Made by a program: the position numbers and the translations under genes
In this document: piece after piece, positions 11,443 through 60,822 of the stretch
Position numbering within the stretch: position 1 is the first letter of the stretch
Layout of the letters: every line of letters starts with the position of its first letter
Notes under the pieces: model-generated
The model's database searches: none
Seen by the model: only the letters and a program-made list of their open reading frames with translations
Told to the model about the DNA's origin: nothing
From: Xanthomonas sontii
GTDB lineage: Bacteria > Pseudomonadota > Gammaproteobacteria > Xanthomonadales > Xanthomonadaceae
Length of the DNA: 64,000 nt
Reading direction: 5' to 3'
Assembly (NCBI RefSeq): GCF_040529055.1
Contig: NZ_CP132342.1
Location: 868,001 to 932,000 of the forward strand

Positions 11443-11501
11443 CACCCCGGTGTCAGCAGGGCCGCCGCAGACTGCCGGCTCCTTCACTCCGGAATGCCCG
11501 C

Positions 11502-44950: not shown

Positions 44951-45072
44951 GCCAATCCAACCTCCTCGCCACCCTCCGCCGCACCGGCACCCTGCGCACG
45001 CTCAAGCCCCTCTCCCCCCGGGAGAGGGGTTGGGGTGAGGGTACGTCCACTCACGGAGGCCCCACCCCGTGA
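44947..45072 (+). CDS. Mini-ORF A: 41-residue RecD leader duplicate
   Basis: GTG start overlapping the recB stop (GTGA). It encodes 41 residues: the RecD N-terminus MSQSNLLATLRRTGTLRTLK followed by REP-encoded PLSPRERGWGEGTSTHGGPTP, and stops at a TGA that overlaps the GTG of the next copy. A CACGGAG sequence precedes the start. It may be translated by coupling from recB, making it a leader that hands ribosomes on to recD; alternatively it is a by-product of duplication with no function. No evidence of expression is available. Confidence 0.5.
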   Translation: MSQSNLLATLRRTGTLRTLKPLSPRERGWGEGTSTHGGPTP

Positions 45073-45194
45073 GCCAACCCAACCTCCTCGCCACCCTCTA
45101 CCGCAGCGGCACCCTGCGCACGCTCAAGCCCCTCTCCCCCCGGGAGAGGGGTTGGGGTGAGGGTACGTCCACTCACGGAGCCCCCACCCCGTGA
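45069..45194 (+). CDS. Mini-ORF B: 41-residue RecD leader duplicate
   Basis: Second 41-codon frame, with start overlapping the stop of mini-ORF A and its own TGA overlapping the recD GTG (GTGA). The peptide begins MSQPNLLATLYRSGTLRTLK and ends PLSPRERGWGEGTSTHGAPTP. It differs from copy A by a few residues and from the recD start by Ser versus Thr at residue 13. Coupled start/stop geometry is preserved in all copies, even though the unit length (122 bp) is not a multiple of three. Confidence 0.5.
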   Translation: MSQPNLLATLYRSGTLRTLKPLSPRERGWGEGTSTHGAPTP

Positions 45195-47173
45195 GCCAAC
45201 CCAACCTCCTCGCCACCCTCTACCGCACCGGCACCCTGCGCACGCTGGACCACGCCTTCGCGCACAGCCTGTCCCGCCTCGACCCGAACACCCCCGACCT
45301 GGTCCTGGCCGGCGCCGCCCTGGCCTCGCTGGCAGTGGCCAGCGGCCACGCCGGCCTCGACCCGGCACGCGCCAGCCTCCTGCTCGACAGCCGCGACGGC
45401 GCCGCTCCCACGCTGCCCACCGCAGACGACTGGACCCGAGCCCTGGCCGCCTCACGCTGGGTCGCACAGCCCGCTGCCGAAGACCCGGCCAGCCCCGACT
45501 GCCCACTCGTACTCGAACACGGCCTGCTCTACCTGCGCCGCTACCGCGAATACGAACGACGCCTGGCCCTGGGCCTGCGCCGCCTCGCCGCACAGCCGCT
45601 GCCGCACAACGACCTCGCCGCGCTCGCACCCTTGTTCGCCCAGCTCTTCCCTCTCCCCCCGGGAGAGGGTGCCCGCAGGGCGGGTGAGGGTACGGCCGCC
45701 GCCTACCCATCCGACCGCCAAGCCCAAGCCGCCGCCCTCGCCCTGCGCCGCGCCCTGCTGCTGGTCACCGGCGGCCCCGGCACCGGCAAGACCACCACCA
45801 TCGCCCGCCTGTTGCTGCTGCGCATCGCCCAGGCCCGCGCCGCCGGCCTGCCGCCGCCGCGCATCGCCCTGGCCGCGCCCACCGGCCGCGCCGCCGAACG
45901 CATGGCCGAAAGCCTGCGCGCCGCGGTGGCGCGCGCCCTCGCCGACGGCGTCGACCCGGCCCTGGCCGAAGCGCTGCCGGCCGGCGCCAGCACCCTGCAT
46001 CGCCTGCTCGGCGTCATCCCCGACCTGCCGCGCTTCCGCCACGACGCCGACAACCCGCTGCCGTTCGACCTGATCGTGATCGACGAAGCCTCCATGGTCG
46101 ACCTGCCGCTGATGTGCAAGCTGGTCGATGCCGTGGCCGACGGCGCGCAACTGATCCTGCTCGGCGACGCCGACCAATTGCCCTCGGTCGAGGCCGGCGA
46201 TGTACTCGCCGCGATCCTGCAGGCCGCCGGCCCCGGCGACGCGCTGCAGCCCGACGATGCGCAGGCGCTGCAGCCACTGCTCGGCCACAGCGCGGTCGCG
46301 CACGACCAGGGCGGCCTGGCCGGGCACCGCGTGCACCTGCTGCGCGGCTACCGCCAGGCCCAGGACTTCGCCCTAGTGCCGCTGGCCGACGCGGTGCGTA
46401 GCGGCGACGCCGACGGCGCCCTGCGCCTGCTGCGCGACGGCCAACTCGCCGGCGTGCGCTTCCACGATGGCGTCGACGACCCGCTCGCCGCCGGCGGCGA
46501 CGCCCTGCTCGCGCACTGGCGTGCCCTCGGCGACACCGACGATCCGGCGCAAGCCCTGCGCGCCGCCGCGCGCCTGCGCCTGCTCACCGCCGTGCGCGCC
46601 GGCCCGCAGGGCGCGCGCGGACTCAACGCGCGCATCGAACAACTGCTTGCCGAGACCGCCAGCGGCGCACGCCGCCTCGGCGCCGCCGCGCCCTGGTTCC
46701 ACGGGCGCCTGCTGCTGATCACCGAGAACAGCTACCGCCACGGCCTGTTCAACGGCGACGTCGGCATCTGCCTGAAGGATGCCCAGGGCACCCTGGTCGC
46801 CTGGTTCGACGGCGCCGGCGACGGCCAAGTCCGCGGCTTCCACCCGGCCGCACTGCCCGCGCACGAAAGCGCCTTCGCCATGACCGTGCACAAGGCCCAG
46901 GGCAGCGAATTCGAGGAAGTCTGGCTGCAGTTGCCGGCCCGCGACGCCCGCGTGCTCAGCCGCGAACTGGTCTACACCGGTATCACCCGCGCCCGCCGCG
47001 CGCTGCATATCGCCGCCAGCGAACCGGTGCTGCGCGCCGCCCTGGCCCGGCACGCGGCGCGGATCTCGGGGTTGGCGTGGCGGTTGGGTGGGGCGGAGCG
47101 GCAGCCACCACCGCCTGCAGCCGATATCCTTCCCGAACTACCCAGCACGCCGATCCAGGGCGCGCTGTTTTGA
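45191..47173 (+). CDS. recD: RecD, exodeoxyribonuclease V alpha subunit
   Basis: A 660-residue SF1B 5'-3' helicase subunit. After an N-terminal domain (1 to about 150) come Walker A LVTGGPGTGKTTTIARLL, ALAAPTGRAAERMAESL (motif Ia), FDLIVIDEASMVDLPLM (motif II), ILLGDADQLPSVEAGDVL (motif III), FAMTVHKAQGSEFEEVWL (motif V) and ELVYTGITRARRALHI (motif VI). GTG start with CACGGAG upstream. A REP-like element is translated in frame at about residues 153-169 (PLPPGEGARRAGEGTAA), in the linker before the helicase core. The start region is the third copy of the tandem duplication. Confidence 0.95.
   Translation: MSQPNLLATLYRTGTLRTLDHAFAHSLSRLDPNTPDLVLAGAALASLAVASGHAGLDPARASLLLDSRDGAAPTLPTADDWTRALAASRWVAQPAAEDPASPDCPLVLEHGLLYLRRYREYERRLALGLRRLAAQPLPHNDLAALAPLFAQLFPLPPGEGARRAGEGTAAAYPSDRQAQAAALALRRALLLVTGGPGTGKTTTIARLLLLRIAQARAAGLPPPRIALAAPTGRAAERMAESLRAAVARALADGVDPALAEALPAGASTLHRLLGVIPDLPRFRHDADNPLPFDLIVIDEASMVDLPLMCKLVDAVADGAQLILLGDADQLPSVEAGDVLAAILQAAGPGDALQPDDAQALQPLLGHSAVAHDQGGLAGHRVHLLRGYRQAQDFALVPLADAVRSGDADGALRLLRDGQLAGVRFHDGVDDPLAAGGDALLAHWRALGDTDDPAQALRAAARLRLLTAVRAGPQGARGLNARIEQLLAETASGARRLGAAAPWFHGRLLLITENSYRHGLFNGDVGICLKDAQGTLVAWFDGAGDGQVRGFHPAALPAHESAFAMTVHKAQGSEFEEVWLQLPARDARVLSRELVYTGITRARRALHIAASEPVLRAALARHAARISGLAWRLGGAERQPPPPAADILPELPSTPIQGALF
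45648..45693 (+). repeat. REP-like palindrome inside recD coding sequence
   Basis: TTCCCTCTCCCCCCGGGAGA followed by GGGTGCCCGCAGGGCGGGTG-AGGGTACGG: a longer REP subtype with a GCCCGCAGGGCGGG inner palindrome. It is in frame within recD and lies between the N-terminal and helicase domains. Confidence 0.85.
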
Positions 47174-47194
47174 CGAGCCGCGTCAGGAGCTGGC

Positions 47195-48253
47195 ATGCGT
47201 AACGACGACAAGGACGCCCCCACCTCGGAATTGATCCTGTATCGCAGCGAGGATGCGCAGACGCGCATCCAGGTGCGGCTGGAAGGCGAGTCGGTGTGGT
47301 TGACGCAGCGGCAGATCGCAGAACTGTTTCAAGTCTCTGTCCCAACGATCAATGAACATCTCGGCAGCATTTTTTCCGAGGGTGAACTTGAACATGAACG
47401 AACTATTCGGAGATTCCGAATAGTTCAAGCCGAAGGCGAGCGCCAGGTGCGCCGCAACATCGATCACTACAACCTCGACGCCATCCTCGCCGTCGGCTAC
47501 CGGGTCCGCTCCGCGCGCGGCACCCAGTTCCGCCAGTGGGCGACGGCGCGGCTGTCCGAGTACCTGGTCAAGGGCTTTGCGCTGGACGACGAACGGCTCA
47601 AGCGCGGGCCGGACGATGGCTATTTCGAAGAACTGCTGGGCCGCATCCGCGACATCCGCTCGTCGGAGAAGCTGTTCTGGCGCAAGGTGCTGGACATCTA
47701 CGCCACCAGCGTGGATTACGACCCGTCGGCCGAGGCCAGCCAGCGTTTCTTCGCCACCGTGCAGAACAAGATGCACTGGGCGGCCCATGGCCACACCGCC
47801 GCCGAACTGCTCATGGAGCGCGCCGACGCCAGCAAGCCGCACAGCGGCATGACCAACTGGGTGGGCGCCGCGCCGCGCGCGTCCGATGCGGTCGTCGCCA
47901 AGAGCTACTTGAACGCGGAGGAGCTGGAGGCGCTGAACCGCATCGTCACCGCCTATCTGGAGTTCGCCGAGTTGCAGGCCATGAACCGCAGGCCGATGAC
48001 CATGGCCGCATGGATCGCCAAGCTGGACGACTTCCTGCGCCTGAGCGACCGCGACCTACTGACCCATGCCGGCCGCATCGGCCGCGAACAGGCATTGGAA
48101 TTTTCCAAGGCCGAGTTCGCTCGTTACAAGCAGCGGTCACTGGCTGAGCCATCGCCCGCCGAGCGCGATTTCGAAGAAGCCGCACGCAAGCTCAAGGCGC
48201 TGGAAGGCGAACGGCGCAAGCCGGTGCGGCCCAAACGACCCCGTGGCGAATAG
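47195..48253 (+). CDS. RhuM-family protein
   Basis: A 352-residue protein of the 'virulence RhuM' family. The family signature is RQVRRNIDHYNLDAILAVGY followed by RVRSARGTQFRQWATARLSE and YLVKGFALDDERLK; the first 60 residues contain WLTQRQIAELFQVSVPTINE, an HTH-like segment. The biochemical role is not known; members are frequent in genomic islands beside restriction and toxin-antitoxin genes. It starts 21 bp after recD with a CAGGAG site, so it might be read from the recBCD transcript. The C-terminus is Lys/Arg/Pro-rich. The assignment is firm, the function open. Confidence 0.88.
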   Translation: MRNDDKDAPTSELILYRSEDAQTRIQVRLEGESVWLTQRQIAELFQVSVPTINEHLGSIFSEGELEHERTIRRFRIVQAEGERQVRRNIDHYNLDAILAVGYRVRSARGTQFRQWATARLSEYLVKGFALDDERLKRGPDDGYFEELLGRIRDIRSSEKLFWRKVLDIYATSVDYDPSAEASQRFFATVQNKMHWAAHGHTAAELLMERADASKPHSGMTNWVGAAPRASDAVVAKSYLNAEELEALNRIVTAYLEFAELQAMNRRPMTMAAWIAKLDDFLRLSDRDLLTHAGRIGREQALEFSKAEFARYKQRSLAEPSPAERDFEEAARKLKALEGERRKPVRPKRPRGE

Positions 48254-48303
48254 TCTGCCGGCGAACTCCTACCGAGGTTGAGTACAACTGCTTGCGTGGC
48301 ATC

Positions 48304-49587
48304 TCACCGCTCCGGGTCGATGAAGGCGCCCATCGCGGCGATTTCGGCATGGCGCGCGCCGCAGCGCCGGGCTTCCGACGGCCAGCCGCGCACGGCGGTT
48401 CGCACCTGTTCGATGATCTCGCCGGCCTGCACTTTGCTCAGGCGGTAGTACGCGCACGTATCGAGCAGCAGCCGCGTATCCGGCGTGGGATCGTCCAGGC
48501 CGACGCCCAGCACGTGCGCGTCCTTGTCCGGGTTGGGGTTCACGTCGAAGGCGGGGGACAGCCGCCAACCGTCGGCGGTGCGCAGGAACCCGTGATTGCG
48601 CAGATGGTCGTCGCGATTGCCGATCAGCACGTTGAACACGACCCGGCGGAACAACTGGCGCAGATCGTCGGCGATCGCCGCCACCGCCCCGTGGTTCTCG
48701 ATGGCGTGCGCGATCTCGGCATAACTGCTGTGCTCGCTGTCGTCCACGTCGAGCAGCGTGAAGGCCGAGGCGTAGGCGCGGCGGTGCGCGCCGTTCCTGT
48801 CGAAACGTTGCACCGCAAAGGTGGTACCCAGATCCGACAGCGGCAGCGCGCGCGCCGCGGGCATGGCGATGCCCGCCGTCAGCGATAGCCGATAGGTCAC
48901 GTATTCCCACAGGCCCACGTCGTGGCGATCGTCGCTGGAGGGGAACTTGGCCAGCCACAGCGTCCCGTCGGTGTCGCGCACGCTGGCCTTGGGCCTGGCG
49001 CCACCCAGCGACGCACCTGGCGCGACCAGTTGCCTGATCCAGGTGACGTCATGGCCGCTGTCGTCGGTGTCGCCGCGCTCCACGCGCACCGCGATGGCTT
49101 CCAGTGTCCGCAATTCGGTCATGGGCGGCGCAGTCAGGACATGGTCGTCCAGATAGCGGCCCCTGGAAGTGCGCAGACGCAATGCGCCCATGCGGGACGC
49201 GTCGTTGACCCCAAGCAGGTAATCCCAGGGACGCAGGGCACGTACCCTGCGATGCTGTTCGCGGGCGTCGATGACCTCACGCCGATCCATCAGACGCTTG
49301 CCCCAGCGGTCAGGCGAGCAATCGAGGAAGGCGCCCGTCAGCGCGCTGGCACCGACGCGCGCGATCAGTGCGCCGCGATGCAACGGTAATTGCGGGTCAA
49401 GTGCAAAGGCGTGGTTTGGCGCGGCGTGGTTCAACCAGCTGTCCGCGTACTGAAAATGCAGGGTATCGCCGGTCCGGCTGGGCCGGCGGATGAGGTGCCC
49501 GACCAGCGCGGGATCGCCAAGGTCGGCGTCGTCCAGCCAGACCTCGGCCTGGGCGAGGTCCTGCACCGCGTCGTCGGCTCCGTTCAT
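48304..49587 (-). CDS. hipA: HipA-type toxin kinase
   Basis: A 427-residue HipA-family serine/threonine kinase. N-terminal subdomain includes CSPDRWGKRLMDRRE (about 90-104). Kinase features: GASLGGARPKASV glycine-rich loop (191-203), the ATP-binding Lys in LWLAKFPSSDD (about 214), FAVQRFDRNG, the catalytic loop NVLIGNRDDHLRNHGF (319-334) and the metal-binding Asp in WRLSPAFDVNP. In characterised systems HipA phosphorylates a tRNA synthetase and induces dormancy. All catalytic residues appear present. It overlaps the antitoxin gene hipB by ATGA. Confidence 0.93.
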   Translation of the reverse strand: MNGADDAVQDLAQAEVWLDDADLGDPALVGHLIRRPSRTGDTLHFQYADSWLNHAAPNHAFALDPQLPLHRGALIARVGASALTGAFLDCSPDRWGKRLMDRREVIDAREQHRRVRALRPWDYLLGVNDASRMGALRLRTSRGRYLDDHVLTAPPMTELRTLEAIAVRVERGDTDDSGHDVTWIRQLVAPGASLGGARPKASVRDTDGTLWLAKFPSSDDRHDVGLWEYVTYRLSLTAGIAMPAARALPLSDLGTTFAVQRFDRNGAHRRAYASAFTLLDVDDSEHSSYAEIAHAIENHGAVAAIADDLRQLFRRVVFNVLIGNRDDHLRNHGFLRTADGWRLSPAFDVNPNPDKDAHVLGVGLDDPTPDTRLLLDTCAYYRLSKVQAGEIIEQVRTAVRGWPSEARRCGARHAEIAAMGAFIDPER

Positions 49588-49901
49588 GGCGCACTCCCGC
49601 GTCGGGCGCCCGGACGGCGCAACTGGCTGTCCTGCAGCTGACGACCCACGTCGTCGTCGCGGGCCAGCAACTCGATGTCCTTGTCCAGGCCCAACGCGGT
49701 CAGCACCCGCAGCACGGTCGCAAGACTGGTCGCTGGATCGCCGCGCTCCAGCTTGCCCACGGTCGGCACGCTGACGCCGACCCGCTCCGCCAACTCGGCC
49801 TGGGTCATCTGCCGACGCATGCGCGCCGCACGCAGGCGCTCGCCCAGGCCCCGGATCTGGCGCTGGGCTCGCGGCATCGTCGGAGGAGTTCGCTTGGCCA
49901 T
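49584..49901 (-). CDS. hipB: HipB-type XRE antitoxin
   Basis: A 105-residue DNA-binding antitoxin. The XRE helix-turn-helix occupies about 18-72 (LGERLRAARMRRQMTQAELA, ERVGVSVPTVGKLERGDPAT). The Arg-rich C-terminus (SQLRRPGARRGSAP) may contact HipA or DNA. It precedes hipA in a coupled operon and probably represses its own promoter through the AT-rich palindrome immediately upstream. Confidence 0.93.
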   Translation of the reverse strand: MAKRTPPTMPRAQRQIRGLGERLRAARMRRQMTQAELAERVGVSVPTVGKLERGDPATSLATVLRVLTALGLDKDIELLARDDDVGRQLQDSQLRRPGARRGSAP

Positions 49902-49904
49902 GGA

Positions 49905-49945
49905 AAATTAAATTACATTTCGCTTCCTGAAATGCAAATTAATTT
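49905..49945 (-). promoter_or_regulatory. HipB operator: AT-rich palindrome
   Basis: AAATTAAATTACATTTC and GAAATGCAAATTAATTT form a near-perfect inverted repeat of 17-bp arms with a 7-bp centre, starting 4 bp upstream of the hipB start codon. It is far more AT-rich than its surroundings and is placed to cover the promoter or start region, as expected for autoregulation by HipB. Confidence 0.75.
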
Positions 49946-50060
49946 CTATCCGAGGAGCTTGTTCAGGCGCTGACGGGCTCTTGAGGCCGCAATGTCGCCG
50001 CACCATCCTGAGCGGGAGGCGGCGCATGCACTCAGGTCAGAGCGCACACGCCCAGCATCG

Positions 50061-50393
50061 TCACTTGGCCGGAACCCGCTGGTACTCGTCGCTGCCGGTG
50101 TTGAGGTGCCCATCGGCCTCGTCGATGGCGAAGTTCACCGTCTCGCCATCGTTGGTCACCTGCAGCACGCCGTCCTTGTAGATGGCCGGGTAGCTCTCGG
50201 TCTTGGGCTTGCGGGTGAAGAAGCGCGGGGTGGTGTTGCGCACCATGAACGACTCCCCGTTGCGCTCGATGTCGATCGTGTCGTCCTTCGACTCCACGTT
50301 GACCCAGTGGCCGACGAACTTCTCGCCCTCCACCCGTGCGCAGCCGGTCACCAGCATCGCCGCGGCCAGCGCCGCTCCCATCCACTTCGTCAT
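50061..50393 (-). CDS. Small lipoprotein, function unknown
   Basis: A 110-residue predicted lipoprotein: signal MTKWMGAALAAAMLVTGCAR with lipobox VTGC (Cys18), then a small beta-rich domain FVGHWVNVESKDDTIDIERN, FMVRNTTPRFFTRKPKTE, YPAIYKDGVLQVTNDGET and HLNTGSDEYQRVPAK. The chain resembles small Gram-negative lipoproteins with a lipocalin-like 'G-W...' start, but I do not recognise a named family. Start at MTKWMGA gives a proper signal; upstream in-frame sequence does not. It is divergent from the fused antitoxin gene. Confidence 0.85.
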   Translation of the reverse strand: MTKWMGAALAAAMLVTGCARVEGEKFVGHWVNVESKDDTIDIERNGESFMVRNTTPRFFTRKPKTESYPAIYKDGVLQVTNDGETVNFAIDEADGHLNTGSDEYQRVPAK

Positions 50394-50647
50394 GTCCCCG
50401 CCTCCGGTGTTGGAATCGGGGCGAGGATGCGATGGGTTGGATGTATGGGAGGTCAAGAATGGGGAGGAGTTCCCCATCGTGCGCAGGCTCGCCCCAATCC
50501 GCCGCCGCGTCGCGTTATTGGCGTGCTTCCAACACTTGAGCAGAGGGGCCTTGCGCAGCGCCGTAACGGATTGCGTCGTATGACGGGTGCCGTTATGGTC
50601 GCTGGATGAGGTCGCCATCGCCGACCCACCAATTCATGCATCCCGTC

Positions 50648-51277
50648 ATGGCCTCCTTGCCCAACATCCATCCGGGCGACGTGCTGCGCGACGAGTTCCT
50701 CGTCCCGCTGGGCATCAGTCAGAACGCACTTGCCCGCGTCACCGGCGTGCCGCCGCGCCGGATCAACGAAATCGTGCTGGGCAAGCGAGGCATCACCGCC
50801 GACACCGCCGTGCGCCTGGCTGCGGCGTTGGGCACGACCGAACGCTATTGGCTGAGTCTGCAGGCGGACTACGAACTGGAAGAGGTGCGTCGCTTGCTTG
50901 GTGACTTTCCGGAGCGGATCAGGCGGCTGGTACCAACGGGTCTTTCCGTCACCAACGTGGAGTCTGTCACCCTGGCGCGCGCCAATCTCTCCGAGCTGGC
51001 CGACCAGGCGAAGGCCGGCGCCGAGAAGATCATCACCAAGAACGGCGAGAGCTACGTCGCGCTGATCGACGCCGACCGGCTGGACTACTACCACCGGCTC
51101 GAGCGCGAGCGCATCCACCTGGTGCTCGACGATGCGAAGCGCGGCTTGGCCGACATCGCCGCCGGCCGTACGGTCGATGCCGATGCCGCCATCGGCCAAC
51201 TGCAGCAGCGGCGCGCGGCGATCAAGACACCTGACGGGGTGAGCCCAGGCAAGCGCGCGGTCAAGAAGCGGGGTTGA
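50648..51277 (+). CDS. Fused HigA-type/Phd-type antitoxin
   Basis: A 209-residue predicted antitoxin that joins two antitoxin folds. Residues about 1-75 are HigA-like XRE: NIHPGDVLRDEFLVPLGISQ, ALARVTGVPPRRINEIVLGK and TERYWLSLQADYELEE. Residues about 103-160 are Phd/YefM-like: ESVTLARANLSELADQAKAG, then KNGESYVALIDADRLDYYHR. The C-terminal tail (DAKRGLADIAAGRTVDADAA) is the usual toxin-binding tail of Phd/ParD-like antitoxins. Two earlier in-frame ATGs (50606, 50636) exist; ATG at MASLPNIHPG matches the usual HigA start. Its presumed toxin gene downstream is broken. Confidence 0.85.
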   Translation: MASLPNIHPGDVLRDEFLVPLGISQNALARVTGVPPRRINEIVLGKRGITADTAVRLAAALGTTERYWLSLQADYELEEVRRLLGDFPERIRRLVPTGLSVTNVESVTLARANLSELADQAKAGAEKIITKNGESYVALIDADRLDYYHRLERERIHLVLDDAKRGLADIAAGRTVDADAAIGQLQQRRAAIKTPDGVSPGKRAVKKRG

Positions 51278-51280
51278 CCA

Positions 51281-51450
51281 TTGCATCGCGTCGAACTGAC
51301 GGCGAGCTTCCTCGCGAGCCTCGACGCGATATAAGCGCTCCTGCTGGACGCCGATGCCGCTGCGGCCTTCGGTGACCTGCTCGCCGAATTGCGTGCGGCC
51401 GTGATCCCGGCCCTGCAGCACTTCTCGCGCATCGTCAATGACAACCGGAG
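51281..51450 (+). pseudogene. ParE/RelE-type toxin remnant
   Basis: Immediately downstream of the fused antitoxin, the frame from TTG at 51281 reads HRVELTASFLASLDAI, then an in-frame TAA (51332-51334), then ALLLDADAAAAFGDLLAELR and AAVIPALQHFSRIV before similarity fades. This resembles the N-terminal half of a RelE/ParE toxin. The internal stop and missing C-terminal half mean it is not functional. The fragment ends about 80 bp before the AT-rich cassette begins. Confidence 0.75.
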
Positions 51451-51531
51451 AGAAGCGTGCTCTGACCCTCGGTTTTGGAAAGTAACGGGACGTCTGTGCA
51501 TGTGCATTCTGAACCGCTTCCTGCATAGCTA

Positions 51532-53292
51532 CTAAGGTTGGCAGTAGATTCTTGGTGTAACACCAGCTTCTTTGCAGGCATGAGCGAAGGAAGAGACTAT
51601 CCAGAAGAACTGCGTGATGTTTCCTGCCACGGCTTGATTACTCTTTATTTTTTTGAATTCCTTGCTCATTTGCGACTTGGATACAAAAGAGCATGCCAAA
51701 ACGCATACCCTTTCATATTTATAATTTCCTACTAACTTTCTGAGAAATGAGGGAAACTGACCATTTCTCTTCCGCACTCTATCGATATTTGAGCCAGTCA
51801 TCTTTTTGCCACGGATGGATTTTTCGTATTTGGCTACTATTTGATCGATGGAAAAATACATATTGCCAAGATTCTTCATTGCCTGGCCTACAACTACCTG
51901 TAAAGAACTCGCTGAAGAGCTTGGCTCGCCATGCTTCGAGTGTACAAAAAAAACGCAGTTTTCCTTGCTGCTAAAAGAAATATGATCGGCCCATTCATCG
52001 CCAAGGTCATCACAAAATAGAAAGTCATCATTGCAGTGAATCTGCTCCACGACAGAAAATACGGTGTCTATGTCAAAGTCGACCTGTGTGGGCAGAAATT
52101 TGCCCTTTTCTGATGTTGCAGACTTAAGGGCTGGAACAGCCAAGAAAAGCGCTAGCAACGCATCGATTTCAGACGATCCAGAAACATCTATAAAACATCT
52201 CTTGGCGAAGTACATATATCTCGTATCGTCAAAACATATGGAATACGCGCCGTTCTTATGTATGAATTTAAGGAGCGTCATCGTCTCTACACCTTCAATA
52301 GAAACTTTTATCCGCTGTAAAACCTTTGAATGAAAAGTTAGGCTTTTCCTGCCAGGTTTCCCCTTAAGCCAAGCGCTATCTTCGTGGCCTATTACAGCGC
52401 CGTTGTCATCGAATTCGTAAACTTTCCCGATCACATCTAGCAAGGACACCCTGGCTTTGCCTCTGATTTCAAAAGCCGTTCCTGCCCTTGTTTCAAAGAA
52501 AATTTTAATACTGCCAGATTCGATCTTCTCAGTTAGAATGGATGTTTCAATGAGAAGTGATCTTGGAATTACCGGATTGGGGTTTGTTTCTAGCTCGGCC
52601 AGATCCACCGATCGAGCAAAGTTCTTTAGGAAGCCATCATTTTTATGTGTACTAGTCATTCGCTTAAGTTCTGATCGAGCCCAAGCTGCGACGGCCTCAA
52701 TGCTCTGTCGATCTGATATTTCCACCAGTCTGCCAGCAGTCAGGGTAACCGATTTGGTGCTGGAACCGTCTTGAACGCGCAAGTAAGATGGAATTGATCG
52801 GCCTGCAGCGTGCAGTGACATGACACCATTTAGATTCATTGCTTCGTATGATTTGTTACGGACCGCTCGCTCGGATACTGTCATGTTCCGAGCATTTATT
52901 TTTCTAAATTCCGCAGTATCCGTGTCCACTGCTGCTGCTAAGGCTTCGTAACTGATTTTCTCAAATTTATCATCTAACTGATCGTTAAGATCTGAGCAAT
53001 TCTTCTTCGTTATAACGAGGTGGTTGTCGATTTCGATGATGACTATATATCCATAAACTCTGTCTTTGAGCAACGGGTCTGAATGAAAATGCAAGTCTCG
53101 CTCCACCAAGAAAAGCGCTGTCGAATAGCGAAAATTTAAAGCGGCCACTTCTTGCCGGAAAACACTGTGCTGGTCAAGAACCTCTACGGCATTCTTGGTC
53201 GCCGCCTCAATTATTTCGGCTATATCCTGCTCAGAAACTTGGTCGGCTGTATAGAATCGAGCATTCCTTGAAAGGATAAATTCATTGGGCAT
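51532..53292 (-). CDS. Large uncharacterised protein of AT-rich cassette, possible nuclease
   Basis: A 586-residue protein that I cannot assign to a family with confidence. No signal peptide or transmembrane segment. It starts MPNEFILSRNARFYTADQ with a good AGAGGTAAGTT ribosome site. The C-terminal third has a pattern suggestive of a restriction-endonuclease-like core: Asp436 in WADHISF, VFFVHSKHG (His451-x-Lys453) and SSLQVVVGQAMKNLG, with a D-x14-HxK layout like the degenerate PD-(D/E)xK of DUF6119/TIGR04141 proteins. Composition is far more AT-rich than flanking genes, indicating recent transfer. It follows a HEPN-like gene in the same direction, 150 bp apart; the two probably act together. 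Nuclease activity is inference. Confidence 0.85.
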   Translation of the reverse strand: MPNEFILSRNARFYTADQVSEQDIAEIIEAATKNAVEVLDQHSVFRQEVAALNFRYSTALFLVERDLHFHSDPLLKDRVYGYIVIIEIDNHLVITKKNCSDLNDQLDDKFEKISYEALAAAVDTDTAEFRKINARNMTVSERAVRNKSYEAMNLNGVMSLHAAGRSIPSYLRVQDGSSTKSVTLTAGRLVEISDRQSIEAVAAWARSELKRMTSTHKNDGFLKNFARSVDLAELETNPNPVIPRSLLIETSILTEKIESGSIKIFFETRAGTAFEIRGKARVSLLDVIGKVYEFDDNGAVIGHEDSAWLKGKPGRKSLTFHSKVLQRIKVSIEGVETMTLLKFIHKNGAYSICFDDTRYMYFAKRCFIDVSGSSEIDALLALFLAVPALKSATSEKGKFLPTQVDFDIDTVFSVVEQIHCNDDFLFCDDLGDEWADHISFSSKENCVFFVHSKHGEPSSSASSLQVVVGQAMKNLGNMYFSIDQIVAKYEKSIRGKKMTGSNIDRVRKRNGQFPSFLRKLVGNYKYERVCVLACSFVSKSQMSKEFKKIKSNQAVAGNITQFFWIVSSFAHACKEAGVTPRIYCQP

Positions 53293-53422
53293 AACTTACC
53301 TCTCGCTAGTACCTAAGTTTGTGAGAAGATCTAATGATCCAACCGGTTTATGGAAGTAAATTCACTCTGGCCCCGTACATCTACCCAAGTTCAACGGAGC
53401 GACCCAAGAGTGAAGATTTTGG

Positions 53423-53450
53423 CAACCCAATCCTTGAAAGGATTAGGTTG
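53423..53450 (-). other. Hairpin spanning the stop codon of the HEPN-like gene
   Basis: CAACCCAATCCTT and AAGGATTAGGTTG form a 13-bp inverted repeat with one mismatch and a 2-3 nt loop. On the minus strand it includes the TAA stop of the upstream gene. No U-tract follows, so it may attenuate read-through or protect mRNA between the two cassette genes rather than act as a strong terminator. Confidence 0.6.
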
Positions 53451-54699
53451 CGATTTCAAGGCGTCGAGACGATGCGATGAGTACGTGGTGGGCAATGAAT
53501 CGCGCAAGATCGATTTCGAAGTGCATGCGGTCAGCCTCGGGCGAATAAGGAAGAAGTAACTCGATATCGCCGTCATCCGAATCGCCTTTCGTATGTACAA
53601 TTTTGCAGCGTATGTCGTATATTCGTTCAGCTACTTGGTAAGCCAGATCGTTTTGTCGATTGTCTGGGTTGATTAGGCAGCCCGTGACGCCCTTGGACTT
53701 AGTCAGGAAGTGTGCTGCTCGTTCCTTGTCATCACCCAAGAAGGCTTTGATATCCTCACGCGACAGGCATTCCTTTAAAGTCGCGCGGAGCTGATCACGC
53801 TCCGAGGCGGGGCCTTGCCGTGATCCACGGAATGCCGCGATTACTCTTGATAGATCCACATCACGGTCTACCCGAAACGAGGGGTGCTTGAGGATCGATC
53901 GAATTCTGCGGCTCATATCCGCGTTGTAGTAAACCGGGTAGTAGTATTCAATGACTTGATAGTAGGCAAGGAACTGAAGCAGCGGCATGCCCTCTGCAGA
54001 GCGAGCGTACCAATACAGTGCCATTGGCGCTTTGTCGTATTCGTGTTTTGGATACTCGATTGGGGCATCTTGTTGATTGGTGCGGGATCGCCTGCGCGAA
54101 GGTGCATGACGAAGAAGCGCGAAGTGCGCCCCGGTTCCCACATCAATCCCAAAAAACACGGAGTTTGATAGTCGTTCAAGTAAATCCAACGCTGAATCGT
54201 GAGTGATCTGTCCTGGTGTTTTTATAAAAAGGCTAGCACCAAGGTTGTCGGTCGACTGCGATAGTAGTTTTGCAGTTTTTGTTGTTGGACCAAAAGAAAC
54301 TGAGGGCAATTCAAGTTCATCACCAATGAGAATACGCGAACTTAGCTTTCCATTTGATTCCGACAAGCCAAGTGCTTTCAATAGCGCGCCCTTTCTAAAT
54401 ACCGGCTTTGACTGCCCTGGCGCCGTCAGGATTGCTTCAATTTGACCAGATTTCCGATCGGCTATTGCTGCGAACGATCCAAGTAAAGTGAAGCTCTCGA
54501 ACTTAAGTTTATCAAAATCCTCAAGGTCATCTTCGTCCCAGATAAATATGTTCCGTGTAGCGCGGCCACAGGGAAACTGCACGGTTAGGTCTACAGATAG
54601 CATGTCGTCAAAGTCGCAAGAGTCAATATACTTAATATTGGCTGCATCGAGGCGATCGACGACTTTTTCGTGTAGCTGTTGAATTTCGTCTTTACTCAT
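53443..54699 (-). CDS. HEPN-like uncharacterised protein of AT-rich cassette
   Basis: A 418-residue cytoplasmic protein with no recognised family. The C-terminal domain contains AERIYDIRCKIVHTKGDSDD: Arg364-x4-His369, the spacing of the catalytic R-x4-6-H of HEPN ribonucleases, within a helix-rich segment that begins near the aromatic-rich FLAYYQVIEYYYPVYY. The N-terminal part (MSKDEIQQLHEKVVDRLDAA, then FDDMLSVDLTVQFPCG and IFIWDEDDLEDFDKLKFES) looks like an alpha/beta sensing domain. AT-rich like its partner, so horizontally acquired together. An RNA-cleaving defence effector is the simplest reading; a structural HEPN role (as in adaptor proteins) is possible. Confidence 0.88.
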   Translation of the reverse strand: MSKDEIQQLHEKVVDRLDAANIKYIDSCDFDDMLSVDLTVQFPCGRATRNIFIWDEDDLEDFDKLKFESFTLLGSFAAIADRKSGQIEAILTAPGQSKPVFRKGALLKALGLSESNGKLSSRILIGDELELPSVSFGPTTKTAKLLSQSTDNLGASLFIKTPGQITHDSALDLLERLSNSVFFGIDVGTGAHFALLRHAPSRRRSRTNQQDAPIEYPKHEYDKAPMALYWYARSAEGMPLLQFLAYYQVIEYYYPVYYNADMSRRIRSILKHPSFRVDRDVDLSRVIAAFRGSRQGPASERDQLRATLKECLSREDIKAFLGDDKERAAHFLTKSKGVTGCLINPDNRQNDLAYQVAERIYDIRCKIVHTKGDSDDGDIELLLPYSPEADRMHFEIDLARFIAHHVLIASSRRLEIAT

Positions 54700-54728
54700 G
54701 GCGTGTAGCTTTTCGATATAGATCTTTG

Positions 54729-54848
54729 CCTAAGGAAGTATTGCGCTGCGTTTATCAGGCCTATCGCTTGCAGGACGCTGGCGCCGACCTGCCACTGACG
54801 AGTATCGGAAAAAACGCTTATGAAGTTCCTCGGCACCGTGGGAACTGA
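54729..54848 (+). pseudogene. Possible gene fragment at the cassette edge
   Basis: The frame starting PKEVLRCVYQAYRLQDAGAD and continuing LPLTSIGKNAYEVPRHRGN stays open for 39 codons at normal high GC, between the AT-rich cassette and the Mrr-type gene, whose 3' end it overlaps. It has no start codon and may be the tail of a gene truncated when the cassette inserted. This is tentative: it could be chance. Confidence 0.25.
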
Positions 54849-55636
54849 CTACAGCCAAGGAGGGATTCGCCCGTGCGCCTGTTGGTCCGCTGCACCAGCA
54901 TGCTTCCACAATGCCGGCATGCATTTGCGTTTGCGTCGATCACCAGGACAAGCGCCGGTTCGATGGGCGGCTTGGAAAAGGATTCGGTCGCGCCGCCGCG
55001 TCGCGCCGACTGGATCATCGCTAGCAATAACTGGCCACTGATTAGCTCGATCGGCTTGCCCCGCGCAAACCGTTCCGCATCGTCCGTATAGCTGCCAACA
55101 CAAACGATCTTCACCGCATCGGCCTGGTGATGCGCCAGCAACCCATACATCTCGCGCACGACGCTGACGCCGACCTGCTGCCGCTTCCGTTGCTTGCATT
55201 GCGCCAGCGTGCGGCGGCCATCCTTGCGCAGGACCGGGTCGATGCCGCCGTCTGCGCCGCCGAGGCCGGTTTCTTCTACCGCGTAGCCCTGGCGGCGGAA
55301 GGCTTCGCCGACCAGGAGTTCGAACTGGCGCCAGCCGCCGGCGGCCAGGCTTTCAAGGGTGGTGCGGGTGTCCAGCAGGCGGCGGCGATGCCGCGCTTTG
55401 AGGAACGAGGCGAGCGCCGCCAGCCAGCAGAGCAGCAGCAGGATCCACGCCATCGGAGCGAATGCGCCTTGCGCTTGCTGGGCGATGGCCTGCGACAGCG
55501 CGCCGTCGTGGCGGGAGAACCACCAGGGGATGCCGTCGCGCACGGCGAGGAAGCCGGCGATGCCGGCCATGATTCCCACTGGCCACGGCAACGCCGCCAG
55601 CGCGTCGAATCCGGTTTTCCCCTGTCTGCGGCCCAT
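54818..55636 (-). CDS. Membrane-anchored Mrr-type restriction endonuclease with zinc finger
   Basis: A 272-residue protein. Two hydrophobic helices (about 14-30 and 59-77) anchor it, then comes an Mrr-like PD-(D/E)xK domain (about 95-195): WRQFELLVGEAFRRQGY, then GGADGGIDPVLRKDGRRTL and AQCKQRKRQQVGVSVVREMY, with the catalytic Asp and Q-x-K. The C-terminal CRHCGSMLVQRTNRRTGESL and GCSQFPRCRG is a topoisomerase-type C4 zinc finger. This plan is known in the Mrr/DUF2034 group, which may restrict modified or foreign DNA at the membrane. ATG at MGRRQGKTGFD is chosen; upstream frame has no domain. Confidence 0.88.
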   Translation of the reverse strand: MGRRQGKTGFDALAALPWPVGIMAGIAGFLAVRDGIPWWFSRHDGALSQAIAQQAQGAFAPMAWILLLLCWLAALASFLKARHRRRLLDTRTTLESLAAGGWRQFELLVGEAFRRQGYAVEETGLGGADGGIDPVLRKDGRRTLAQCKQRKRQQVGVSVVREMYGLLAHHQADAVKIVCVGSYTDDAERFARGKPIELISGQLLLAMIQSARRGGATESFSKPPIEPALVLVIDANANACRHCGSMLVQRTNRRTGESLLGCSQFPRCRGTS

Positions 55637-55908
55637 GCGACCCCCGTCCCCGGATCGACCATAGACCTGTGTGCGGCAGATGTCTGTACTGTTAACTGTG
55701 TCGTCTACAAAGCGAGACACGCGTAGCATTAAAGGCTCGGTGGTGGCGTCGCGATCGGTAGCCGGATCGCCTGTGCCGATCGGCGAAGCGACGTGTGCGG
55801 CAGCGTTCTCGGACGCGCCTGTCCGCCGCCCGTCGCCGCCTTCCGTGGCGCCGAGACGTCCATGCTAGCGTCGCGCTGCCGACGGTCCGGCGCACTGTGG
55901 GGCAGGAA

Positions 55909-56610
55909 ATGAGCAGCGAGTCGACGCGCCGCCAACTGGCGCCACCACGCACCACGCCAATCGTACGCATGGCCTGGTGGCTGCTCTGGCTCGCCCTGGC
56001 CCTGCTCGCCGTGGAGTTCGTCCATTCGGTCTATCTGAAGTACGCGTCGCTGCAATCGCCGGCCTATGCGATGTTCCTGGCCCGCCGCGGCTGGTTGTGG
56101 TGCCATCTCGGTGGCGGGGCGGTTGGCCTGTTGCTGGGGGCGCTGCAGTTCGCGACGCAGCGGTGGCGGCGTTGGCCGCGGCTGCATCGTTGGGTGGGGC
56201 GGGTGTATTTCGCCGGGATGGTGGTGGCGATGGTCGGGGCAGTCGGGCTGATCGCGACCTCGCCGGCGCCGCCGTCGATCCGGGTGGCGTTCGCGGCCAC
56301 GGCGTTGGCGTGGTTGGTGACCGGGTCGGTCGGACTGGTGGCGATCCGGCGCGGGCAGGTGCTGCGGCACCAGCGCTGGATGGTGCGGGCCTATCTGGCG
56401 ACGCTGGCACCGGTGGTGTTCCGGGTGGCGTTGCCGTCGGCGATCGGCCTTGGCCTGACGCCGTCGCCGGGCTTGATCGCGCTGCTGCTGTGGGCGAGTT
56501 GGGTGGTGCCGTTGTCGGTGTATGGCGTCGGGCGCGTGATCGCCGATGCGCGGGGCCGGCGCAAGCAATCGGCGATGCTGCTGTGCGGTGCCGGCCTCGG
56601 CGCGGGGTGA
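55909..56610 (+). CDS. DUF2306-type integral membrane protein
   Basis: A 233-residue protein with about six hydrophobic helices. HRWVGRVYFAGMVVAMVGAV and HQRWMVRAYLATLAPVVFRV, with the repeated H-R/Q-W pattern after each pair, fit the DUF2306 family of unknown function, thought to be heme- or quinone-related by some annotations; that is not established. ATG lies 3 bp after AGGAA; the long upstream in-frame extension is Arg-rich and unlikely. It is divergent from the Mrr-type gene, with 272 bp between starts in which no further gene is seen. Confidence 0.8.
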   Translation: MSSESTRRQLAPPRTTPIVRMAWWLLWLALALLAVEFVHSVYLKYASLQSPAYAMFLARRGWLWCHLGGGAVGLLLGALQFATQRWRRWPRLHRWVGRVYFAGMVVAMVGAVGLIATSPAPPSIRVAFAATALAWLVTGSVGLVAIRRGQVLRHQRWMVRAYLATLAPVVFRVALPSAIGLGLTPSPGLIALLLWASWVVPLSVYGVGRVIADARGRRKQSAMLLCGAGLGAG

Positions 56611-56795
56611 TGGCCGGGCGTATTGGGATCGTATGCCAGCCGGTGATTGCCACTGCCGGTATCGCCACGCCGATCTGCCGTCATTCCAGTCCTGAGTCAG
56701 ATTTGCCAACGCTCGCGCTGTCGCGCAGCTGCGCACAATGCGCGGTCATCGTCGGCCCAGCATCGGCGCCCGTATCACGCACCACTCTCATCGCA

Positions 56796-56832
56796 CAGAA
56801 AACACTGCCACGCCTGCGCCCAGGCGTGGCAG
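56796..56832 (-). terminator. Rho-independent terminator of the lipase gene
   Basis: A perfect 12-bp stem CTGCCACGCCTG/CAGGCGTGGCAG with a CGCC loop; on the minus strand it is followed by TGTTTTCTGT. It lies about 65 bp downstream of the lipase stop codon. Confidence 0.88.
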
Positions 56833-56897
56833 CCAGCGGGACGGACGATCGCAGGCGCCGGGGGAGGAGTGCGCCTGCGTTGTCGCCCGCCGCGACC

Positions 56898-58160
56898 TCA
56901 GCGGAGCGTGTCGAACAGTTGCTGGCGTACGGCGATGGTGCAGGCGTCTTCGGTGAACAGGTGTTCCAGCGCGCTGTTGTCGCTGGGCTTGCCGGTGCCC
57001 AGGTCGAGCACGGTCGCCTGCTTGCTGCCGCGTGCCTTGAACGCGGCGATGGCGGTGGTGGCGTTCTTCAGCGGCACGGTGGCGTCGTTGTCCGAGCCGC
57101 ACAGCAGGGTCGGGGTGCGCGGCGCCCAGTCGAGCAGGTCGTTGCGCTCCAGGTCGCGCAGGAACGGGTCGTTGGCGTTGCTGGCGAAGTCCTTGTAGAA
57201 GCCGGGCTGGAAGTACTGGCGGATCTTGTCCACGCCCGGCAGGGTGTCGCCGAGCACTAGGTCGGTCAGGCTCTGGTTGCCGGGGAACAGCTTCTCCACT
57301 TTCTTCGCCCACGGATCCTGGAACACCTGCGACGGGTCGAGATAGAGGTTCTTGTAGGTGTGCTGCATGCCGACGATGGCGTAGCTGGCCAGGACGATGC
57401 CGAAGGTGTTCTCGCCCACGGCGTTGCGGCCGCTCCAGCTGTCGCGGAAGGTCTGGCTGAGTGCGTACGGGCCGGAGATCGGCGCGCTGGCGACCAGGTT
57501 GAACTCGTTGGACAGGTGCGCTTCGATCTCGCGCTGGGTGGCCATGGCGGCATGCCCGCCCTGCGAGAACCCGGTCAGCATGACCTTGCCCGACAGCGGG
57601 GTGTTGAGCCGTTGCAGCACCTGGCGCGCGGCGCGCATCGCATCGATGGTGGAACTGGCCTCGGACGCGGCGTGCAGGTAGGGGTGGAACGCGTAGGTGG
57701 ACTGGCCGATGCCGAGGTAGTCGCTGCTCACCACCACATAGCCCTGGGTGGCGAGGTGGGTGACCATGGTGTCGTCGCCCTTGGCGTCGCGGATCTCCTT
57801 GGCCTGCTCGGCGCGGCGTTGCGACTCGGTGCCCTGGCTGTAGCTCACCAGGGGGAACGGACCGGGGCACTGGCTGCCGCCCGGCACCAGCAGCGCGGCC
57901 GACGCCGTGGTGGGTTCGCCATCGACGCCGATGGTGGCGTAGGTGAACTCGGCCACGCGTACGTCGCACTTGGCCTGGTCGGGGGATTGGTCGTTGGCCA
58001 GCAGCGTGGCGATCGCCTGACGGGTGTAGCTGGTCAGGACATTGCTCTTGAGCACGGTGCCGCGCGCCGGTGCCGCCGTGGCGGCGATGGGCAACAACGC
58101 GCCCGCGATGCCGATGAGGGAAAGTGCGCGCAGCGCCAGCCGATTCCGCTGTGTGGCCAT
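56898..58160 (-). CDS. Secreted lipase-family alpha/beta hydrolase
   Basis: A 420-residue exported hydrolase (signal about 1-29, cleavage after ATA-A). The layout matches the secretory lipase family (LIP/PF03583): YTRQAIATLLANDQ, then GVDGEPTTASAALLVPGG, PFPLVSYSQGTES, VVVSSDYLGIGQS, the nucleophile elbow VMLTGFSQGGHAA (Ser about 197), the acid CGSDNDATVPLKN and the His in SALEHLFTEDAC. It probably hydrolyses lipids or esters outside the cell or in the periplasm. A GAGGATGTTTCC site precedes ATG. Terminated by a strong hairpin, so monocistronic. Confidence 0.9.
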   Translation of the reverse strand: MATQRNRLALRALSLIGIAGALLPIAATAAPARGTVLKSNVLTSYTRQAIATLLANDQSPDQAKCDVRVAEFTYATIGVDGEPTTASAALLVPGGSQCPGPFPLVSYSQGTESQRRAEQAKEIRDAKGDDTMVTHLATQGYVVVSSDYLGIGQSTYAFHPYLHAASEASSTIDAMRAARQVLQRLNTPLSGKVMLTGFSQGGHAAMATQREIEAHLSNEFNLVASAPISGPYALSQTFRDSWSGRNAVGENTFGIVLASYAIVGMQHTYKNLYLDPSQVFQDPWAKKVEKLFPGNQSLTDLVLGDTLPGVDKIRQYFQPGFYKDFASNANDPFLRDLERNDLLDWAPRTPTLLCGSDNDATVPLKNATTAIAAFKARGSKQATVLDLGTGKPSDNSALEHLFTEDACTIAVRQQLFDTLR

Positions 58161-58682
58161 GGAAACATCCTCGTGTCGAATCCCGGTCGCCCGGGGGGTG
58201 GGGGAGGGCGCAAACGCTACTATGTCGTCCGCATTATTTTTGCGACACGACGAGATAATATTTAGCTGCGGTATTGATTCGCATCGCACCTGACGGAATT
58301 TCACGACACATCGCGTTGGAAAATGCCGAGATCCATCGATGCTGCGGCGTGCGCTGCGCCACAGTGGCGACGAGGAAAGGATGAAAGATCCGCATGGTTT
58401 CGCGCGAATCCAGCCGAATTCCGCTGTTTCGGCTGGCTGCGTGCACGTCATGGGAATTTGTCTACGTTTCTGAAGCGGACTTTTCAGAAGTCAATAATCT
58501 TGATTTCAAGATAATCGGAGGTTGGCGATAGATAATCGCGCCAGATGATCCGGATATTGTCCGCCGCCACGAAACGCGTGGGCGGCGCAAGGACAGAAGC
58601 AGGACATCATCGACGTCGTGCGCGTCACGGCGTGTCTTGTCTATCGCCGTGCGCCGTCGGGATGGAACTCGCACCGCGGCAT
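58161..58682. other. Intergenic region upstream of the lipase gene
   Basis: About 520 bp without a credible gene. An AT-rich part next to the lipase start (ATTATTTTTGCGACACGACG followed by AGATAATATTT) is the likely promoter. A second AT-richer stretch near 58480-58520 (TCAATAATCTTGATTTCAAG) contains a short CTTGAT/ATCAAG-like inverted repeat. No RNA motif was recognised. Confidence 0.5.
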
Positions 58683-58715
58683 AAAAAAGCCGGCGGACCT
58701 TGCGGGCCGCCGGCT
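58683..58715 (-). terminator. Rho-independent terminator
   Basis: On the minus strand AGCCGGCGG...CCGCCGGCT forms a 9-bp stem followed by TTTTTT. It lies 44 bp after the stop of the 151-residue exported protein gene. Confidence 0.9.
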
Positions 58716-58758
58716 GCGATCGACGTTGCTGGCCCGCGCGCGGGCCAGCGGAACGGGG

Positions 58759-59214
58759 TCAGCGCACCTGGTACAGCACGGTGGCGCCGGGCTTGGGTTC
58801 GAACGCGGGGACGGTCTGCTGTTTCAGCGGCGTGCCCTTGGCGTCCCACACCAGGGTGTCGGACGGGTATTCGTCCTTGCGGGTCATCGCATCGATCTGC
58901 TTGACGATCACGCTCGCGCCGGCGGGAACCTCGGGGTTCCAGGCGAACACGCCGAGCCTGCCGTAGAACACGGCCGGGGCGGTGGCGTCCAGGCGCCGAT
59001 CGGGGCACATCACCAGGCCGCGGTCGAGCATCACCCGCAGCGCGCCCACCGGCACGGCCTTCACCGCCGGCGAGGTGCGGTCGGTGCTATGGCCCGGGCA
59101 GACGTTGGCCGAGCGGGTCAGCATGTCCTCGACCACCTGCCGGTCGGACTGGGCCAGCGCGGGCAGGGCGACGGCGGCGAGGGCGAGTGTTGCGAGGGGG
59201 AATTTCCAGGGCAT
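58759..59214 (-). CDS. Small exported protein, function unknown
   Basis: A 151-residue protein with a signal peptide (about 1-22, ALPALAQ/S). The mature chain starts SDRQVVEDMLTRSANVCPGH and includes AVPVGALRVMLDRGLVMCPD, VFYGRLGVFAWNPEVPAG and a C-terminal KPGATVLYQVR. The two Cys residues (about 40 and 71) could form a disulfide in the periplasm. I do not recognise the family. It has its own terminator and an isolated position between two intergenic gaps. Confidence 0.8.
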   Translation of the reverse strand: MPWKFPLATLALAAVALPALAQSDRQVVEDMLTRSANVCPGHSTDRTSPAVKAVPVGALRVMLDRGLVMCPDRRLDATAPAVFYGRLGVFAWNPEVPAGASVIVKQIDAMTRKDEYPSDTLVWDAKGTPLKQQTVPAFEPKPGATVLYQVR

Positions 59215-59693
59215 GTCGAGACTCCTTCAATGGAGGAAAGACGCCGGGTTTTGCGGGACCTGCAAAGTGGGGGACAGGCGGCCGCGGCGGCGCGGGCCGA
59301 CTCTAGCAACGGTGCCGGCGGCGAATGCAAAGCGGGCGTGAGGGCGCTGGCTGGGCAACCGCTTCGGGCGTCGGGCGCTGCGCCGCGTGCGCTCCGCGTC
59401 GCCGCAGGGTCGCGGATGGAACCGCTCCGACCGTAGCGGCGCCGCTCGCTGTGTTGTCCAGCGTGCCGCCAGCGCGGAAAGCGTGCAATCGCGTGGCAAG
59501 GGATTCAGTCCGATCGCAATGGAACCCCGCATGTGCCGATGGCTTCACTCGTCGCGGCTGAAGCCGCTCCGCAGGGATGAAGCCTGCGTCTCCAACGAAT
59601 GCTGACCACCGCAAGGCCGGCCGCTCCCTGTGGGAGGGACTTCAGTCCCGACCGCAGCGAGGGTGGACGCACCGATCGCCCGCTCACAGCAAC
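59215..59693. other. Intergenic region with two palindromic repeats
   Basis: About 480 bp without a credible gene. It contains GTCGCGGCTGAAGCCGCTCC at 59551-59570 and TGTGGGAGGGACTTCAGTCC at 59630-59649, the same two palindromes that make up the 140-bp tandem unit at 13.1-13.7 kb, here single and about 80 bp apart. Confidence 0.7.
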
Positions 59694-60599
59694 TCAGCGA
59701 TACGGCCCCGGCCCGCGCCAGACCAGTTCGCCCTGGTGGTAGACCTGCAGCATGGTGATGACCTGGCGGGCGTCGCCGATGCTCTTCAGTTCCGGCGAGT
59801 CCGGCGGCAACGCGCGGCACTTGCCGGAGCCGCGGGTCAGGGCGATTTCCAGCGGGCAGACCATGCGGTACTCGGTGCCGGGCAGCAGGATGAACATCTC
59901 TTTCATGCCCTGCTGCTGCCAGGTGCGCAGCTGGCTCTCGCTGCCCAGGTCGTAATAGACCAGGTAGCCGCCGACCTCCAGGCTGGGCTGGGCCGCGTCC
60001 ATGTCGTGGCGGTTGCCACGGCTGCCGGGGCCGGCGGCCAGGCCGCTGTTGTCCGGGGCGGTGTCGGTATCGAGCGCGCCGGGCGGGCGCCCGGTCCAGG
60101 TCTGCGGACGGCGCTCGGTCGGCGGCGGCGGATTGCTGTCGGCGGTCTGCGCCGGGCTCGGCGCCGGGGCGTCCGCGGGCGGGGTGGGCGCCGGCGGTGC
60201 CGGACGCGGCTGCGGCGCCGGGGCGGGCGCGGGCGTGTCCGCCGCTTTCGGCGTATCGGTGCGATCGGGCGGCGGCACCGGGTCGTCGGACTGGGCGACC
60301 AGGGTGGATTGCACGGTGGTGGTGGCACGCGTGCGCTTGGGCGCGGCGGACGCCGGCGGCGGGCTGGGCTTGGGCGGCAGCGGCTTCACCGGCTTGTCGC
60401 TGTCGCCGAGGAAGTCCACGCGGATCCGGCTGCCGCCGGCCGCGCCCTGCGGCGTGGACATGGTGGGCTTGGCCGCATACAGCAGGGCGAGCGCCATCAG
60501 CACGTGCAGCAGCGCGCTGAGCAGCCAGGCGATCCAGCGCTGCCAGCGTTCGCTGCGGGTCTCGGCGGCGACGGGCGCGCGGTGCGACACGCGGCTCAT
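59694..60599 (-). CDS. TonB/GspC-like Pro-rich inner-membrane protein
   Basis: A 301-residue bitopic protein. One transmembrane helix (about 23-42: WIAWLLSALLHVLMALALLY) follows a short Arg-rich cytoplasmic tail; a long periplasmic Pro/Ala-rich linker (about 75-200: PPKPSPPPASAAPKRTR and similar) leads to a globular C-terminal domain (about 205-301) with EVGGYLVYYDLGSESQLRTW, MFILLPGTEYRMVCPLE and ITMLQVYHQGELVWRGPG. The architecture resembles TonB or secretin-associated clamp proteins, but the C-terminal domain is not a recognised TonB fold. No ExbB/ExbD genes are near. Role unknown. Confidence 0.8.
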   Translation of the reverse strand: MSRVSHRAPVAAETRSERWQRWIAWLLSALLHVLMALALLYAAKPTMSTPQGAAGGSRIRVDFLGDSDKPVKPLPPKPSPPPASAAPKRTRATTTVQSTLVAQSDDPVPPPDRTDTPKAADTPAPAPAPQPRPAPPAPTPPADAPAPSPAQTADSNPPPPTERRPQTWTGRPPGALDTDTAPDNSGLAAGPGSRGNRHDMDAAQPSLEVGGYLVYYDLGSESQLRTWQQQGMKEMFILLPGTEYRMVCPLEIALTRGSGKCRALPPDSPELKSIGDARQVITMLQVYHQGELVWRGPGPYR

Positions 60600-60822
60600 G
60601 CCGTCGCGGCGGCGTCGGGGAGGCCAGCCTTCATGCGGTTCCGGGGAGGGGGCGAACGTGGGAGGCCGCCATCGTACCGCTTGCGCCGGCAACGGCCATG
60701 GCAGCCGATGCGATGGCCGGCACCGGCCGACACCTGGCGTTCACGCGCTGGGCTGCCGGCCGACCACCGCCGCCGGCCGGCGGGACGAACCGAAGCGGCA
60801 CGGCCGCCGCCGTGCCCGTGGA

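Follow-up and report, generated by a model that had tools for sequence, protein, structure and literature searches.

Excerpts of published reports describe Tha, of the Staphylococcus prophage 80alpha, as a phage-encoded HEPN ribonuclease (RNase) with a C-terminal HEPN domain and an Arg-x4-His motif, R265NSIMH270 (PMC11087260), Dazbog as a system with a DUF262 component (PMC10952713), and P2-like phages as carriers of small exchange sites with anti-phage cargo (PMC9122126). A polar residue (N, D or H) right after the motif Arg is, in the excerpted source, typical of HEPN domains without being required (PMC3710099). The RnlA and LsoA toxins are also listed among the closest known systems. The present analysis concerns two adjacent genes of Xanthomonas sontii, located on a stretch of 64,000 nucleotides (contig NZ_CP132342.1, positions 868,001 to 932,000 of the forward strand; hereafter "the window", to which coordinates refer unless another locus is named). 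The genes encode protein 1 (53443..54699, minus strand; 418 aa) and protein 2 (51532..53292, minus strand; 586 aa), and they probably represent two independent, putative single-gene anti-phage effectors that lie side by side in a defence-exchange slot.

Occurrence of the two genes

The first-pass annotation of this DNA had suggested that the two genes, as a pair of an RNase with a deoxyribonuclease (DNase) or of a nuclease with a sensor, would be a new anti-phage module, to be checked by their co-occurrence across hosts. The relatives examined carry one gene or the other, not both; the module was accordingly rejected, as recurrent co-occurrence was not found. A scan of genome contigs yielded 47 protein 2 loci (several of which end at contig ends), none of which was matched by the protein 1 profile (0/47), while only the window's own L001 and L049 were. 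Whole-genome searches likewise found no protein 1 in the 46 genomes behind the protein 2 loci (0/46; genome completeness unstated) and no protein 2 in the six other genomes that hold protein 1 or a distant relative (0/6; G115, G271 and G1288 have distant relatives only, while G1055 and G1277 have incomplete copies). An empty result for protein 1 would by itself show nothing, but the same profile did give matches in other searches. Protein 1 was detected in 3/395 genomes scanned, and G057, which has protein 2, is not among them. Each gene occurs in one of the 20 genomes of the genus sample, in both cases the window's own, and protein 2 occurs in 2/299 genomes of the order sample. No other case of both genes together was found among the 47 loci, the 46 genomes, 14 protein 1 loci and the six genomes; each gene is rare, and the window is the sole place where the two were seen together.

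Furthermore, a scan of viral contigs returned eight relatives of protein 1 (31-47% identical) and no confirmed relative of protein 2. The protein 1 relatives stand alone in all eight contigs, seven of which place them beside recognisable phage genes, as identified with PHROGs: a DNA methyltransferase and a terminase in L085, a repressor and a primase in L086 (genes shared with L088 and L091), an integrase in L087, a transcriptional regulator and a tail protein in L090, and baseplate proteins in L092. In these seven contigs the next recognisable downstream phage gene is on the opposite strand. The part of L089 that was scanned held no clear phage gene, its sole scanned neighbour best matching a PHROG of unknown function. 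In all 11 measured of the 14 protein 1 loci, the gene has a higher AT content than the surrounding locus (only slightly so in L089), and this is equally true of the protein 2 gene in 24/24 measured of the 47. Beyond the window, the plasmid search gave one distant and partial match for protein 1, neither protein matched the named phage records, and DNA of the slot was absent from the E. coli genomes searched.

Among the neighbours in the 14 protein 1 loci, besides phage genes common to related phages, only methyltransferase and dnaG-like families stood out. A DNA methyltransferase family lies near protein 1 relatives in two different viral contigs (L085 5334-6101, L087 4115-4972). A dnaG-like gene, named by eye, lies within about 4 kb of the relatives in L074 (9357-10637) and L081 (8351-9349), and this neighbourhood is possibly a common insertion site. 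No neighbour family recurs in more than seven of the 47 protein 2 loci, and the families found there resemble, by eye, widespread regulators as well as transposases, integrases and restriction-modification genes of type I. Several protein 2 relatives among L035, L043, L044, L045, L047 and L048 are truncated or fragmented, and a transposase-like family adjoins those in L035, L043 and L044.

A genuine two-gene RNase and DNase module that was assembled recently in this lineage would agree with the co-orientation of the genes, their spacing of 150 bp (53293..53442, minus strand) within one exchanged slot and a codon usage compatible with a single donor. It is nevertheless improbable, since no second locus or genome with both genes turned up in the sets above, the relatives of protein 1 in eight viral contigs have no confirmed protein 2 counterpart there, and protein 2 has its own ribosome-binding-like site (GAGAGG, read from the sequence just 5' of its ATG). 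Separate donors were not supported by codon usage either (p 0.27), which cannot tell joint from separate arrival. Two separate defences are thus preferred over a two-part system because the relatives examined carry one gene or the other; genes that merely share a slot for defence exchange can thus look like a two-component system.

The exchange slot and its surroundings

The slot that holds both genes (51435..54816, without strand) was delimited by the ends of shared sequence in eight related regions around the Mrr-like gene, which were fetched and aligned with the window. The left shared sequence stops at 51432-51434 in 5/8 regions (L064, L065, L067, L070, L071), and the right one begins at 54817-54827 in 6/8; in L070 and L071 it begins within the Mrr-like gene. 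Four regions have cargo immediately between the two anchors: L064 (an AIPR/AbiU protein), L065 (9408-11050; a ParA/AAA_31-like gene and an adjoining RiboL-PSP HEPN gene, which PADLOC does not match at E 0.01), L070 (a NACHT protein) and L071 (a protein of the AAA_15/AAA_21 kind, with matches that are AriA-like). To the left of the slot, L066 and L067 show rearrangement; next to its Mrr-like gene the former carries two adjacent AT-rich open reading frames (ORFs) at 9865-11586, neither of them matched by Pfam at E 0.01 and one of them matched weakly by BrxA in PADLOC, and the cargo of the latter comprises one unassigned ORF and one transposase-like ORF, both without a family scan. L068 and L069, being without the left anchor, were not read as slots. 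The slot beside the Mrr-like gene is probably a hotspot of defence-gene exchange, and its contents turn over among related genomes.

The "broken toxin" of the first-pass annotation was aptly named. This ORF at the left junction (51260..51434, plus strand), which we take to be RelE/ParE-like, has in the window an open frame of 100 bases before the divergence at 51434 and 98 after it, as against 157-158 before and 215-404 after in L064, L065, L070 and L071; because a longer frame spans the site in these four related genomes, the ORF is a remnant. It adjoins, in the left flank, a single ORF that combines HTH_3 with a sub-threshold Phd/YefM-like match (50606..51277, plus strand).

The foreign base composition that had been remarked upon was borne out, with a GC content of 0.488 for the protein 1 gene and 0.433 for the protein 2 gene vs 0.688 for the window, and of 0.42-0.52 across the two-gene block vs 0.59-0.79 over the remainder of 44000-62000. 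In this region, sites resembling promoters or terminators are not in excess over shuffled sequence. The defence-type neighbourhood also stands as far as its members are concerned (HipA/HipB-like, RhuM and Mrr-like genes), but the Mrr-like gene in the right flank (Mrr_cat with a Zn-ribbon-like part; 54818..55729, minus strand) is no local newcomer. It is common in the genus, with DNA matches in 15/20 genomes including the window's own, two of the 15 only by pieces shorter than 75 bases. Genes resembling recC, recB and recD, named by eye, occupy 37644-47173, directly upstream of RhuM, HipBA and the exchange slot. The close named homologues of the two proteins are from Xanthomonas (P0122, 97%; P0002, 72%).

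Folds and invariant residues of the two proteins

Protein 1 comprises an N-terminal alpha/beta region (about residues 1-200) and a C-terminal HEPN-like domain (residues 223-412; 53464..54033, minus strand). The motif RCKIVH at residues 364-369 (53593..53610, minus strand), which had been singled out for its HEPN spacing, exceeds chance: R364 and H369, together with E251, are invariant in 57/57 aligned relatives, a set of 45 sequences (A2, among the 120 matches listed of 650 homologues found) and 12 from fetched loci, which does not take in every homologue. The motif lies at the end of helix 352-368, as expected of HEPN domains, in which Rx4-6H ends a helix; the residue after the Arg is Cys in 55/57, in departure from the usual polar N, D or H, and Asn in 2/57. 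A HEPN-like fold of the C-terminus is moderately supported, and protein 1 is likely an RNA-cutting enzyme. Foldseek searches with protein 1 against PDB and viral structures gave nothing significant; fold results here are Foldseek-ranked matches, from which unlisted folds are not thereby absent. NCBIfam and PHROGs gave no match for either protein, and PDB sequence searches no significant match.

In favour of a MauJ-like HEPN protein with a role in regulation or metabolism, rather than in defence, are a sub-threshold Pfam match to MauJ (24.8 bits vs a cut-off of 28) and MauJ matches of 24/45 protein 1 family members at E 1e-3 or better. Such a role is very unlikely in view of the cargo positions in viral contigs, the AT-rich gene, the invariant Rx4H and the sharing of the slot with Abi-type genes. 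MauJ and HEPN appeared jointly in one paper only, on grapevine by its title, within the literature searched (bioRxiv lay outside this and the other literature searches).

Protein 2 belongs to a catalogued candidate family, contrary to the first-pass statement that neither protein matched a named defence family: its residues 3-586 match positions 5-589 of the 589 of the PADLOC profile PDC-S71 (E 4e-133), which is a full-length match, and no difference from the family was found. The HEPN half of protein 1, for its part, matches DzbB. The PDC-S71 code presumably denotes a single-gene candidate, and no mention of it was found in the literature searched. The fold assignments of protein 2 cover residues 5-218 (52639..53280, minus strand), with a tentative RdgC-like fold, and 387-586 (51535..52134, minus strand), with a PD-(D/E)xK-like nuclease domain. 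RdgC in combination with phage defence and nuclease returned nothing from the literature searched.

The putative catalytic segment D436-x14-H451-S-K453 (51934..51987, minus strand) and the downstream Gln helix, both picked out in the first-pass annotation, are likewise conserved beyond chance: D436, K453 and Q470 (within helix 461-473) are invariant in 59/59 aligned relatives and H451 in 58/59, this alignment consisting of 48 sequences (A1, among the 120 matches listed of 259 homologues found) and 11 from fetched loci, and thus not of every homologue. The earlier guesses of a HEPN and a restriction-endonuclease fold are moderately upheld by the folds and invariant residues, yet the motif of protein 2 is atypical in having His where PD-(D/E)xK nucleases usually have D/E two residues before the Lys. 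Its C-terminus is assigned to a PD-(D/E)xK-like fold with modest confidence, and folds and residues suggest that protein 2 is likely a DNA-cutting enzyme. Five plasmid records matched protein 2. On a Bradyrhizobium plasmid (L052 3589-6660) a ResIII/DEAD helicase is fused to the PDC-S71 nuclease domain, and PDC-S71 domain-like matches occur within helicase-annotated proteins on two Sinorhizobium plasmids.

Comparison with known systems

The observations comprise the genes themselves, their folds (assigned with modest confidence), invariant residues of a catalytic type, the lack of co-occurrence in the material examined, the viral contigs with protein 1 relatives and the turnover of the slot, whereas nuclease activities, anti-phage function, triggers and the sparing of self are inferred. 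In the proposed scheme, the N-terminal region of protein 1, probably a sensor, would sense infection; the protein would dimerise through its HEPN domain and cut RNA, and growth would stop, along the lines of Tha, the RNase carried by a prophage. The RdgC-like head of protein 2 would hold DNA and its PD-(D/E)xK-like domain would cut it, as a single-chain enzyme.

Inspection of L084 by eye showed CD-L ... IHxK ... S ... Q, a short look-alike motif shared by protein 2 and TIGR04141/DUF6119, and one homologue of protein 2 (P0080) is named a TIGR04141 protein in UniRef, which weighs against dismissing DUF6119. Pfam gave no DUF6119 match for protein 2 or the 48 A1 members, and NCBIfam none for protein 2. 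DUF6119 identity was rejected on comparing A1 with one DUF6119 protein (probability 0.05%; the test is weak, as it had one sequence to compare). A DUF6119 protein was found in 1/143 genomes searched.

The DzbB component of Dazbog aligns with the HEPN half of protein 1 (E 2.6e-11; profile positions 174-309 of 341), and its profile matches 45/45 protein 1 family members, at up to 8e-16. Since Dazbog is described with a DUF262 component (PMC10952713), protein 1 might be an orphan effector of the DzbB type whose DUF262 partner is encoded at another place in the genome. This is considered unlikely: the match is limited to the HEPN half, the N-terminal half of DzbB having no match in protein 1, so that full-length agreement is lacking; a Pfam scan of eight proteins at 47195-55729 found no DUF262 family (a search confined to this part of the genome); and no DzbA appears in the PADLOC matches listed for five of these proteins (for RhuM, 25 of 40 matches).

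Two solitary defences, rather than an orphaned Dazbog, remain the preferred reading, and a bolder version of it is put forward tentatively, as a possibility that is still somewhat doubtful. Protein 1 would represent a hitherto undescribed HEPN RNase family, solitary and often carried by phages, which has the effector half of DzbB and its own sensor without a DUF262 partner, and which is a mainly proteobacterial counterpart of Tha; PDC-S71 would be a one-chain defence nuclease, whose RdgC-like, DNA-gripping head chooses phage recombination or replication DNA and whose nuclease domain is reused on helicases. Both single genes are open to testing, the one as a HEPN family that stands alone on several different phage backbones, the other as a PDC-S71 nuclease for which candidate catalytic residues can be named and which has a cousin fused to a helicase.

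A parallel in design is Tha. The new observation is that protein 1 relatives stand alone in viral contigs, like this prophage HEPN RNase, which the excerpted report presents as a single phage-borne gene (PMC11087260). As far as that excerpt goes, both proteins have a C-terminal HEPN domain with Arg-x4-His and an N-terminal region without a recognised domain; they differ in length (301 aa in Tha, 418 aa in protein 1) and in the residue after the motif Arg (Asn in Tha, Cys in protein 1). Activation by a phage tail protein is a further trait of Tha. Homology was rejected, as hhalign gave a probability of 0.24% (with the single Tha-1 sequence) and no match. Protein 1 has no detectable sequence relation to Tha, and the likeness is therefore an analogy of design and not membership; if active, protein 1 would provide a further example, unrelated in sequence, of the strategy seen in Tha, in which a phage carries a HEPN RNase.
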